The notes under the pieces were generated by a model. That model was not told the DNA's origin, searched no databases, and saw nothing but the letters and a program-made list of their open reading frames with translations. The translations under genes and the position numbers were made by a program. Below are positions 34,149 through 41,953 of a stretch of DNA of 64,000 nucleotides, piece by piece; positions within the stretch are counted from its first letter, which is position 1; every line of letters begins with the position of its first letter. The DNA comes from Synechococcus sp. WH 7805 (GTDB taxonomy: Bacteria > Cyanobacteriota > Cyanobacteriia > PCC-6307 > Cyanobiaceae), in the NCBI RefSeq assembly GCF_000153285.1, contig NZ_CH724168.1, positions 417,823 through 481,822 on the forward strand. Direction: 5' to 3'.

Positions 34149-36062
34149 ATGAACCAACGCTGGCGCCAGATCCTTCTTTGGGGTCTTCCAATCACGATTG
34201 CACTGGTGCTGGCTTGGCAGGTACTCGGGAGCGGTGGTCTCAATAGCCTGAAGCCCGGAGGTCCAACCGTTGCACCGCGGAATACCGCAGTTGCTCGCAT
34301 GAGCTACGGACGCTTCCTTGATTACGTCGCAGCGGGTCGTGTCACGTCTGTTGATATCTACGACGGCGGTCGTGATGCTGTCGTAGAAGCTGTCGACCCA
34401 GATCTCGATAACCGAGTTCAACGCCTGAGAGTTGATCTTCCTGGGCTTGCTCCTGAACTCATCAACACACTCAAAGCCGAAGGCATCAGCTTTGACATTC
34501 ACCCACCCAAAACAGCTCCACCGGCCCTAGGCCTTCTCGGGAATCTTCTGTTTCCTCTGCTCCTGATCGGATCGTTGATCTTCCTGGCTCGACGTTCCAA
34601 CAACATGCCTGGCGGCCCTGGTCAAGCCATGCAGTTCGGAAAAACCAAAGCCCGCTTCGCAATGGAAGCAGAAACCGGCGTGATGTTTGACGATGTCGCC
34701 GGTGTGAATGAGGCGAAGCAGGATCTTGAGGAGGTTGTGACCTTCCTGAAGCAGCCTGAGAAGTTCACGTCTGTTGGTGCTCAAATTCCAAAGGGTGTGC
34801 TGCTGGTTGGCCCTCCAGGAACCGGCAAGACCCTGCTCGCCAAAGCCATTGCTGGAGAGGCTGGGGTTCCGTTTTTCTCTCTTTCCGGCTCGGAGTTCGT
34901 CGAGATGTTCGTGGGCGTTGGTGCCAGCCGCGTCCGCGATCTATTCAAGCGAGCCAAAGAGAACAGCCCGTGCCTGATCTTTATTGATGAAATCGATGCC
35001 GTGGGTCGGCAGAGAGGAGCGGGTATTGGTGGAGGGAATGATGAACGTGAACAGACCCTCAACCAGCTGCTCACAGAAATGGATGGTTTCGAGGGCAACA
35101 GTGGAATCATCATCATTGCCGCGACCAATCGTCCCGACGTTCTTGACTCAGCGTTGATGCGTCCCGGTCGTTTCGATCGTCAAGTGACTGTTGACGCCCC
35201 TGATATCAAAGGTCGACTGTCCATCCTGGAAGTTCATTCCAGAAACAAGAAACTCGATCCTGACCTTTCACTCGACAGCATTGCCAGACGGACACCAGGA
35301 TTCACAGGTGCAGATCTTGCCAACCTTCTCAACGAAGCAGCGATCCTGACCGCCCGCCGTCGTAAGGAAACCATCAGCCTTTCCGAGATCGACGACGCCG
35401 TTGACAGAATCATTGCCGGAATGGAAGGTCAACCTCTGACCGATGGTCGAAGCAAAAGATTGATTGCTTACCACGAAGTTGGTCATGCGCTGGTGGGCAC
35501 CCTGGTGAAGGATCACGACCCTGTTCAAAAAGTCACCTTGATTCCAAGGGGACAAGCCCAGGGTCTGACCTGGTTCTCTCCGGATGAGGAGCAGATGCTG
35601 GTGTCTCGCTCTCAGCTCAAAGCTCGGATCATGGGTGCACTTGGTGGCCGAGCAGCCGAAGATGTTGTTTTCGGTCGTGCAGAAGTCACCACTGGAGCGG
35701 GTGGTGACATTCAGCAGGTCGCGTCGATGGCGCGCCAGATGGTGACTCGATTTGGCATGAGCAACCTTGGTCCCATGTCTCTTGAAGGTGGGAGTCAGGA
35801 AGTTTTCCTTGGCCGCGATCTGATGACGCGGAGTGATGTTTCGGAAGCTATTTCAAAACAAGTTGATGATCAGGTGCGCAGCATTGTGATGCAGTGCTAT
35901 CAAGAAACACTTGAGCTGGTGGGAGCTCAAAGGGAGGTGATGGATGATCTGGTCGAATTGCTTATTGAGAAAGAAACGCTGGATGGAGATGAGTTTCGTG
36001 AACTTGTTGCCAAAGTGACTGAGATTCCCGAAAAAGATCGTTTCTCTCCCGTTCTTAGCTAA
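34149..36062 (+). CDS. ftsH: ATP-dependent zinc metalloprotease FtsH
   Basis: A membrane-anchored AAA protease; cyanobacterial FtsH complexes remove photodamaged D1 and other proteins. The 637-aa protein has N-terminal and [19 protein letters not shown] spans, Walker A GPPGTGKT at 221-228, Walker [11 protein letters not shown], the second region of homology with [19 protein letters not shown], and the zinc motif HEVGH at 442-446. Length is normal. It follows the MacB-like gene by 63 bp. It is one of several FtsH paralogues normally present, and which one cannot be settled here. Confidence 0.96.
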
Positions 36063-36068
36063 AAGTTA

Positions 36069-36119
36069 ACCTCCGGATTCCATGATGGTTTTTTAAGTTG
36101 ATCTATGGAATCCGGAGGT
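36069..36119 (+). promoter_or_regulatory. 15-bp perfect inverted repeat covering the start codon of the 77-aa gene
   Basis: ACCTCCGGATTCCAT (36069-36083) and ATGGAATCCGGAGGT (36105-36119) are exact reverse complements separated by 21 nt. The ATG of the downstream gene is the first three bases of the right arm. If transcribed, the stem would bury the start codon. The T-run TTTTTT is in the loop, so this is not an ordinary terminator. An RNA switch controlling translation, an operator, or a 3'-end structure of ftsH mRNA are all possible. Confidence 0.6.
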
Positions 36120-36338
36120 GGAACACATTCTCCACTTGAGAGCTTTAGTAGTTATCGAGGAAATGATTGGTCACCAGAGCGCTTAGTTTTCCATCAGAAT
36201 TTGGAGCAATTTGCTGAGCGTGTTGGTTTAATCGTTGGCTTGCAGGCCAATGGAAAAATTGAACAAAGCGAAGCCTACGCTGAAATCAAAGTTCTATGGA
36301 ATGAGTTGCGCTCTAGCAAAAAAGACTTATCTATTTAG
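36105..36338 (+). CDS. Conserved-looking 77-aa protein of unknown function
   Basis: A small soluble protein with no signal peptide or membrane span. It contains SPERLVFHQNLEQFAERVGLIVGLQANGKI followed by a helix (SEAYAEIKVLWNELRSSKK). This resembles a family of short uncharacterised cyanobacterial proteins (I believe DUF7219, from memory). An in-frame TGA just upstream fixes the ATG at 36105 as the first possible start. That ATG lies in the right arm of a long inverted repeat. ftsH ends 42 bp upstream. Confidence 0.75.
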   Translation: MESGGGTHSPLESFSSYRGNDWSPERLVFHQNLEQFAERVGLIVGLQANGKIEQSEAYAEIKVLWNELRSSKKDLSI

Positions 36339-36349
36339 AACAACATAAT

Positions 36350-36388
36350 AAACCCATTCAGACAGCTTTTAATTGCCTGAATGGGTTT
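36350..36388. terminator. Bidirectional terminator between the 77-aa gene and clpP
   Basis: AAACCCATTCAG and CTGAATGGGTTT form a 12-bp perfect stem around a 15-nt partly paired loop. It sits between two convergent stops; T-rich sequence follows on the minus strand. Confidence 0.7.
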
Positions 36389-36393
36389 GTAGA

Positions 36394-36984
36394 TTAAACA
36401 GAGTGAACGGGTCTTTTGTCAATCACACTATCGATTAATCCATAGTCAGCTGCTTCGTGTGGAGACATAAAGAAATCACGGTCTGTGTCTTCCTGGATTT
36501 TCTCCAAAGGCTGGGATGTGCGCTCAGCCAGCTCTTGGTTAAGACGATTTTTCAAAAATAGAATTTCATCGGCTTGGATTCTGATATCACTTGCTTGGCC
36601 GCGAGCACCACCCAGAGGTTGGTGAATCATGATCCGAGAATGACGAAGGCTACTCCTTTTCCCCTTAGCACCTGCACAAAGCAGAAAAGCTCCCATGCTC
36701 GCCGCGAGACCGACACAGACTGTCTGAACATCAGGCTTAATGTGCTGCATCGTGTCAAAAATTCCCAGTCCGTCGTAAACGGATCCACCTGGTGAATTGA
36801 TATACAAGAAAATATCTTTCTCCGGATCCTCAGCTTCTAAAAACAACAGTTGAGCAACAATGCGGTTGGCGGATTCACTTGTGACAGCTTCTCCAAGGAA
36901 GATGATGCGCTCCCGCAACAAACGGGAATAGATGTCGAAGGCTCTTTCCCCGCGCCCGGATTCCTCGATCACGATGGGGATCAT
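36394..36984 (-). CDS. clpP: ATP-dependent Clp protease proteolytic subunit
   Basis: A self-compartmentalised serine protease subunit. With the ATG at 36984 ([21 protein letters not shown]) it has the usual 196 residues. Ser96 in GLAASMGAF and His121 in [10 protein letters not shown] are the catalytic pair, and the Asp near 170 (DTDRD) completes the triad. The frame stays open 50 codons upstream, but that stretch lies in the thf1 promoter and is not ClpP-like. It is one of several paralogues in cyanobacteria. Confidence 0.95.
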
Positions 36985-37043
36985 GCTGCTCTTGCACACT
37001 GACTCAATCCTAACGGCGGCATCGGCAGCGCTATGGTCATGCC

Positions 37044-37748
37044 TTGAATCAACTGCAGAAAACCTTGACAGGGCTTCGGACGATCGCAGACAGCAAAAGA
37101 GCGTTTCACGCAGCCTTTCCCTACGTGATTCCATCGCTCTACCGACGCACTGCCGATGAGTTGCTTGTGGAACTGCATCTGCTCAGCCACCAGACGCAAT
37201 TCAAGTCGAATGCTCTCTTCGCTGTCGGACTCCGGCAGGTCTTCACTGCCTTCACCAAGGGATATCGACCTGCTGATCACCTCACCGAGCTGTTTGATGC
37301 CCTGTGCAGTTGCAACGGTTTCAACGCCCAACAGCTGAATTCCGTCGCAGAGGGATCAGAAAAAGCTGTGGCCGGCCACAGCATGGAGGAGGTACAGGCT
37401 TGGTTGCAGTCGAAAGGTGAAGGGGCTCCAGAACCTCTCGCCACTGGTCTTGCCGACATTGCTGGTGAGCAGTTCCATTACTCAAGACTGATGGCCGTCG
37501 GTCTGTTTTCTCTTCTTTCCTCAGCGCAGGGCGTTGAGTCACAAGATCCTGAAGACCTCTGCAAGACAGCCCACAGCATCGGTGAACAGATAGGACTATC
37601 CAGACCTCGTCTGGAGAAGGATCTCAGCCTGTACAGAAACAACCTTGAAAAGATGGCCCAGGCGGTCGAACTGATGGAGGAAACGCTTGCTTCAGAACGG
37701 CGGAAACGTGAGCGACAGTCCTCTGAAAGCAACCAGACTCAGGATTGA
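37044..37748 (+). CDS. thf1: Thylakoid formation protein Thf1 / Psb29
   Basis: Psb29/Thf1 supports photosystem II biogenesis and repair, in part by acting on FtsH protease complexes. The 234-residue protein shows [22 protein letters not shown] near the N-terminus, VELHLLSHQ and [18 protein letters not shown], with a C-terminal coiled segment ([16 protein letters not shown]). The start is TTG at 37044; the only near ATG (37038) meets a TGA after one codon. It is divergent from clpP and overlaps the next gene tail to tail by 10 bp. Confidence 0.93.
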
Positions 37749-41766: not shown

Positions 41767-41953
41767 AAGGGGTGAACCACCCAGCCGTGCAAGCCCCAGT
41801 GTTCGACCTGGAGTTACCAGAAGGGGCGACAAAGTGAGGCTTCGTTTCCGGCTACGAGGCCGGTCTACGGCACCATCACGACAGTTGCCCCAAGTCGAAA
41901 GAGAGTCAGATCAGAGCACTAGAAAAAGGCTCTCACCAACTGAGTAGTCCAAG
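41762..41953 (+). ncRNA. ssrS: Probable 6S RNA (6Sa) next to purK
   Basis: About 190 nt without a convincing gene between DUF2103 and purK folds into a long rod. GGTGA (41771) pairs with TCACC (41933), AGCC with GGCT, and AGTG with CACT (41917). An unpaired purine-rich 3' stretch at 41900-41916 forms a bubble. TTCGAC (41802) then pairs with GTCGAA (41894), GGGGCGAC (41823) with GTTGCCCC (41884), and GGCTTCGT (41838) with ACGAGGCC (41854). Two helices need G-U pairs that exist only on the plus strand. From memory, cyanobacterial 6S RNA genes lie by purK. The ends are approximate. Confidence 0.62.

Follow-up and report, generated by a model that had tools for sequence, protein, structure and literature searches.

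A hairpin over the start codon of a DUF7219 gene downstream of ftsH in one Synechococcus clade: a candidate translational lock

In five Synechococcus genomes that form one clade, the start codon of a small DUF7219 gene located after ftsH is base-paired in a stable, conserved stem (5/5 genomes, by sequence and prediction). Given the clade-wide pairing, the double-sided changes and the rarity of such an outcome under neutral drift, this stem most likely represents a selected RNA hairpin, as judged from five sequences of one clade, and its probable role is to repress or regulate synthesis of the DUF7219 protein. The interpretation that we favor, with somewhat better than even confidence and guided by folding predictions, is that a cis-acting hairpin on the ftsH read-through mRNA would serve as a translational lock on the DUF7219 gene.

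The inverted repeat and its gene context

The relevant features of the window, that is, the whole 64-kb stretch of DNA from Synechococcus sp. WH 7805 that was analyzed, are the following.

34149..36062, + strand: ftsH (FtsH_fam/M41 membrane protease), the upstream gene, identified by Pfam and NCBIfam TIGR01241; stop codon at 36060-36062
36069..36083, + strand: left arm of the repeat, beginning 6 nt past the ftsH stop (repeat search, alignment, pair statistics)
36084..36104, + strand: loop, with a T-run at 36089-36094 inside (alignment, folding)
36105..36119, + strand: right arm, consisting of the DUF7219 start codon and codons 2-5 and including GGAGG at 36114-36118
36105..36338, + strand: DUF7219 gene, 77 aa (PF23856)
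36350..36388, + strand: inverted repeat 3' of the DUF7219 gene (repeat search, by eye)
36394..37134, - strand: clpP, convergent neighbor (Pfam, NCBIfam)

The two arms are 15 nt long each, 100% complementary and spaced by 21 nt; the left arm reads ACCTCCGGATTCCAT, and its exact complement is located at 36105-36119. The ATG (36105-36107) constitutes the opening three bases of the right arm, in exact agreement with the coordinates of a preliminary description, which was also correct in placing the run of six Ts in the loop rather than after the stem. A 16th pair, G-U, between 36084 and 36104 extends the 15-bp stem inward. A scan of the window for perfect inverted repeats (12 bp or longer, loop of 3-60 nt) gave just two: the hairpin, which is the longest, and a 12-bp repeat located 3' of the DUF7219 gene. 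This result bears out the earlier statement that such arms are rare by chance. CCTCC (36070-36074) lies opposite GGAGG (36114-36118) across the stem; the earlier suggestion that the former masks the latter holds in the window, where these bases pair, but the pairing is broken in G020, and GGAGG is located within the coding region.

An in-frame TGA (36099-36101) precedes the DUF7219 ATG immediately in the window, the sole in-frame start listed for the gene in WH7803 is the same ATG, and G020 alone of the five genomes contains a second in-frame ATG, 24 nt upstream. A mini-ORF (ATG ATG GTT TTT TAA, 36082-36096) spans the left arm and the loop in the window; a conserved upstream mini-ORF was rejected as an explanation of the element, given that G022 lacks the matching ATG and that in G020 this ATG is in frame with the DUF7219 gene.

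The 77-aa ORF matches PF23856 with an E-value of 2.3e-22 and 78.8 bits against a curated cut-off of 27. The protein is modeled as a helical hairpin (mean pLDDT 80.4) with a low-confidence N-terminus, the mean pLDDT being 45 for residues 1-10 and 52 for residues 11-20, a stretch that includes the right-arm codons. According to this model, the right arm probably encodes a disordered N-terminus. Given the low confidence of this region and the start of the Pfam match at residue 23, the stem codons seem able to change along with the RNA; codons 2, 3 and 5 are affected by the doubly changed pairs described below. None of the papers searched contains the word DUF7219, and among the matches listed for non-coding RNA and transcript starts of WH7803, none was recognized as mapping the ftsH-DUF7219 locus.

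Inspected by eye, the repeat downstream of the gene (36350..36388) might terminate the ftsH-DUF7219 unit, clpP or both, although the T-run behind it is only short and the repeat is absent from the terminator-scan list. All five hairpin genomes show, by eye, a stem 3' of the DUF7219 gene, with a T-run behind it that is clear in WH7803, G022 and G020, short in the window and missing in G010.

Conservation and distribution of the hairpin

The five hairpin genomes are the window, G002 (WH7803, CT971583.1), G022, G010 and G020 (MAG CO36386bin_29), and in all of them the hairpin is found at the same place, with no indels between the ftsH stop and the left arm. Across 16 pairs and five genomes, 75 of the 80 cells are paired (94%, compared to 25-55% for slid control structures, a comparison in which the derivation of the structure from the window favors the hairpin). 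Among the pairs, 4 are invariant, 5 vary on one side, 3 depart by unpaired cells only, and 4 are changed on both sides, these last being the compensatory changes that the preliminary description proposed to look for in the two arms among relatives. In shuffles that ignore relatedness, the observed percentage of paired cells and the covariation score were each reached in 0 of 500 cases, the number of doubly changed pairs in 1 of 500 and the number of further pair types in 38 of 500; the covariation score also lies well above those of the slid controls. With no structure supplied, RNAalifold recovered the same 16 pairs plus five outer ones. The three start-codon pairs are unbroken in all five genomes, and the breaks occur at the outer end, near the ftsH stop, mostly in G020.

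Neutral drift was simulated from a perfect ancestral stem under the Jukes-Cantor model, using the branch lengths of the ftsH tree and rates fitted to the arms. Under these settings, 62.6 paired cells were retained on average, 75 or more were retained in 0.035% of 20,000 runs, and none of the 25,680 runs with divergence near or above the observed one reached 75. The non-Watson-Crick cells include 10 G-U (7 pairs), 2 A-C (2 pairs) and 3 others; this excess of G-U leans toward an RNA of the coding strand but, counted by pairs, is only suggestive. Mean identity is 0.40 in the loop outside the T-run (columns 45-54) versus 0.73 in the left arm, and the loop TTTT is invariant in the five genomes.

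The DUF7219 gene was detected by protein search in 8 of the 31 same-genus genomes (no match in 23) and in 7 of the 24 genomes of the genus with a completeness of 90% or more and a contamination of 5% or less; with the Pfam model, it was detected in 143 of 400 family genomes (142 above the cut-off), including the same 8 in the genus. An upstream ftsH on the same strand is present in 36 of 90 DUF7219 loci, a redundant set, and no ftsH was found within the stretch examined in the other 54. The 30 genus loci comprise 5 with the gene and the hairpin, 3 with the gene only and 22 without the gene. In the 3 gene-only genomes (G018, G003 and G019), the DUF7219 gene also follows ftsH and the stem is absent; given this same gene order without the stem, the latter is not needed for the DUF7219 gene in general. 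Conservation of the left arm wherever the gene is kept, a check proposed at the outset, is accordingly seen throughout the five-genome clade and fails in these three relatives. In the ftsH tree, which includes the 30 genus loci (G015 was left out) and two outgroups, with some rows differing in base composition, the five hairpin genomes form one branch (100/100) and G003, G018 and G019 another (98/97). The hairpin is a clade-specific device between ftsH and DUF7219 and does not characterize the gene family. In all 22 gene-lacking genus loci, a stem followed by a T-run was seen by eye within 110 nt after ftsH, and no such terminator was seen between ftsH and the DUF7219 gene in the five hairpin genomes.

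A set of 400 family genomes, sampled evenly from a larger group under stricter filters, was searched with a hairpin model (R1), which yielded 14 genomes at E-values up to 0.1, namely, the five known hairpin genomes, at 8.4e-15 or better, and nine genomes of the genus g86, at 0.011-0.097. Eight of the g86 matches (L083-L088, L090 and L091, at about 1500-1580) coincide with the start of a single unrelated gene (MDPGTNSQ... or a similar sequence), which we take to be CPP1-like; the context of this start consists of a U-run followed by TCTATGGATCCTGG or a close variant, the left side being partly complementary. The ninth match (L089) is located elsewhere. A wider hairpin family including the g86 genomes was rejected, and these matches were treated as look-alikes, given the unrelated gene in eight cases and the different location in the ninth. 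Across 54 sources (the window and 53 of 151 loci), R1 matched the window alone, on both strands, apart from one match to L117 at an E-value of 0.75, and no convincing hairpin match was found in the other gene-bearing loci searched. Among viral contigs, 10 stretches fit a pattern, none of them encoding a relative.

The ftsH-DUF7219 gap was also surveyed for stable folds in 34 loci, with 60 shuffles each (the set includes the identical pairs L054/L106, L060/L111 and L022/L118). Folds of other anatomies, with z-scores of -3.4 to -5.6, were detected in L046, L092, L072, L060, L066 and L067, and such folds in other ftsH-linked lineages count against our reading of the hairpin. In another lineage (L060, L072, L092, L098 and L111), the gap contains a hairpin of approximately 10-14 pairs, upstream of the start, which has a T-run behind it and is terminator-like in L092 but lacks a T-run in the other four. 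In L046, the first 135 nt past the ftsH stop, covering the gap and the first DUF7219 codons, are very stable (z -5.6) and contain an in-frame ATG at position 45.

Predicted accessibility of the start codon and the proposed lock

For 36055-36140, the predicted folding energy is -33.2 kcal/mol (z -5.3), with none of 200 shuffles equally good, and the predicted z-scores of the five hairpin loci range from -4.1 to -5.3. When 59 ORF starts of the window were compared (60 were picked, one being too near the end), the DUF7219 start ranked first for the cost of opening positions -15 to +12 (24.3 kcal/mol, median 12.7) and second for that of opening the start codon (7.0, median 1.6); because the ORFs were picked mechanically, by taking the longest ones with their first start, some of these 59 starts are surely wrong. 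Across the five hairpin genomes, the predicted cost of opening the start codon is 4.3-10.6 kcal/mol at 37 C, from which we infer that the DUF7219 gene would be translated poorly unless the hairpin is opened.

The loops of three genomes (G022, G020 and G010) show, by eye, a Shine-Dalgarno-like purine stretch, with no clear one in WH7803 or the window. According to the predicted folds of G022, G020 and, in part, G010, this stretch and the U-rich strand form an upper stem, with a small internal loop between it and the lower stem that holds the ATG; no such pairing is predicted for WH7803 or the window. The predicted energies of anti-Shine-Dalgarno binding are -5.1, -4.8 and -4.2 kcal/mol in G022, G020 and G010, -4.1 in WH7803 and -2.5 in the window, and so do not set G010 apart from WH7803.

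In the proposed lock, the hairpin would form on a transcript running from ftsH into the DUF7219 gene. Should it form in the cell, it would bury the start codon, together with the Shine-Dalgarno-like stretch in the three genomes that have one, and would thereby keep DUF7219 translation low and conditional. The translational control proposed earlier fares accordingly: sequestration of the start is supported by conservation and compensatory changes in five genomes, at the sequence level, and the stem is absent outside this clade. Between ftsH and the DUF7219 gene, the consensus scan of the window reported neither a promoter-like site on the + strand nor a terminator-like one; because the scan is limited to loops of 3-8 nt, its silence on terminators says little about long-loop stems. 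An intrinsic terminator was rejected as an identity for the hairpin itself, the T-run being in the loop, with none directly after the stem, and the scan giving no match.

Ribosomes finishing ftsH, the stop codon of which is located 6 nt before the left arm, might open the hairpin in part, and such partial opening is possible according to the folding model. With a parked ribosome covering 12 nt past the ftsH stop, the start is about as closed as at 9 nt (opening cost of 5.0-11.8 kcal/mol, 25 C); with 15 nt covered, four genomes require 1.0-4.1 kcal/mol, whereas G020 still requires 11.4. Given that about 15 nt of coverage is needed and that G020 hardly opens even then, coupling alone explains opening poorly.

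Alternative explanations and known parallels

The main rival of the translational lock, which we regard as unlikely, is insulation against read-through: the long ftsH RNA, which contains both arms, would be silent for DUF7219, and a short transcript lacking the left arm, from a promoter overlapping that arm, would be translated, so that regulation would be transcriptional and the hairpin would silence read-through alone. Phage T4 I-TevI offers a precedent (PMC2988022). A short transcript beginning inside the hairpin is possible, considering that a weak -10-like word, CAT(G/A)AT (4-5 of the 6 letters of TATAAT), is present in all five genomes (at -24/-25) and that four of them also contain TANNNT (at -38/-39); a transcript from these sites could lack all or most of the left arm and would retain the Shine-Dalgarno-like stretch in the loops of three genomes. 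However, the consensus scan of the window finds no + strand promoter there, the CAT of the -10-like word is also fixed by pairing with the ATG, and the candidate site is weak, with no -35 seen. Were insulation the correct explanation, a single 50-nt element would separate two adjacent genes without a terminator, a phage-type lock on a chromosome. Still less probable is a role in RNA processing or stability, in which the stem would protect the 3' end of the ftsH mRNA or be cut by RNase III and would cover the start merely through closeness. The stable stem immediately past the ftsH stop and the gap folds of other anatomies in other lineages are compatible with such a role, as is the hairpin between operon genes in Bacillus ars1, read as an attenuator, which lowers the downstream transcript (PMC4562236); against it, the inner ATG stem is the best kept, with the start-codon pairs intact in 5/5 genomes, and it is the outer pairs that break.

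An RNA thermometer of the cyanobacterial hsp17 type appears highly improbable. The predicted layout in G022, G020 and partly in G010 is similar, with the start in the lower stem and a Shine-Dalgarno-like/U-rich upper stem, but the lower stem is predicted to be far too stable for heat alone to open, the start codon being unpaired at 45 C with a predicted probability of 2.2e-7 to 2.9e-3 in the five genomes; in addition, the start-codon stem of hsp17 is the weaker one (PMC4477652), and a clear Shine-Dalgarno stretch is absent, by eye, in the window and WH7803. Given this negligible predicted opening, a thermometer as such was rejected, and temperature, one of the openers put forward in the preliminary description, is disfavored. 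The least probable reading, a DNA inverted repeat that is a protein-binding site or a mobile-element remnant, would fit the perfect arms in the window; it was rejected because the letters of the arms co-vary among orthologs, most non-Watson-Crick cells being G-U on one strand, and because its own genome yields a single match, by DNA and by the hairpin model.

The translational lock has several known parallels. Long polycistronic transcripts of phage T4 carry hairpins that conceal where translation of the downstream genes I-TevI, soc and e begins (PMC2988022), which resembles the arrangement proposed here. In T4, it is the ribosome binding site that is hidden, whereas at the present locus the stem contains the start codon itself; the late promoter of I-TevI yields late transcripts without the structure, whereas here there are only weak -10-like letters; furthermore, the T4 cases are phage genes, and the present gene, which follows ftsH, belongs to a bacterial chromosome. 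Synechocystis hsp17 has a single hairpin with the start in stem I and the Shine-Dalgarno sequence in stem II (PMC4477652), as predicted here for three of the five genomes; unlike in hsp17, stem I here comprises up to 15-16 pairs and is predicted to be unmelted at growth temperatures. In MS2 coat/replicase, L11-L1 and IF3-L35-L20, downstream translation depends on upstream translation (PMC9894550), a dependence for which the present locus is a candidate; unlike in those systems, the upstream gene stops ahead of the left arm and the ribosomes translating it therefore never cross the stem, and coupling is predicted to be partial.

The hairpin is a new, uncatalogued example of this known start-hiding logic: no Rfam family was found at the hairpin at the gathering score, the best lax match having an E-value of 0.26 and 18.8 bits versus a gathering score of 73. 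An RNA element that shows covariation in five genomes, without an Rfam match, is located between ftsH and a small DUF7219 gene with no terminator seen, and it may tie DUF7219 output to ftsH. As a small system open to testing, it could serve to study start-codon locking in marine Synechococcus, including the sequenced strain WH7803. Elsewhere in the window, at 41770-41953 on the - strand, 6S RNA (RF00013) was identified with 98.9 bits.
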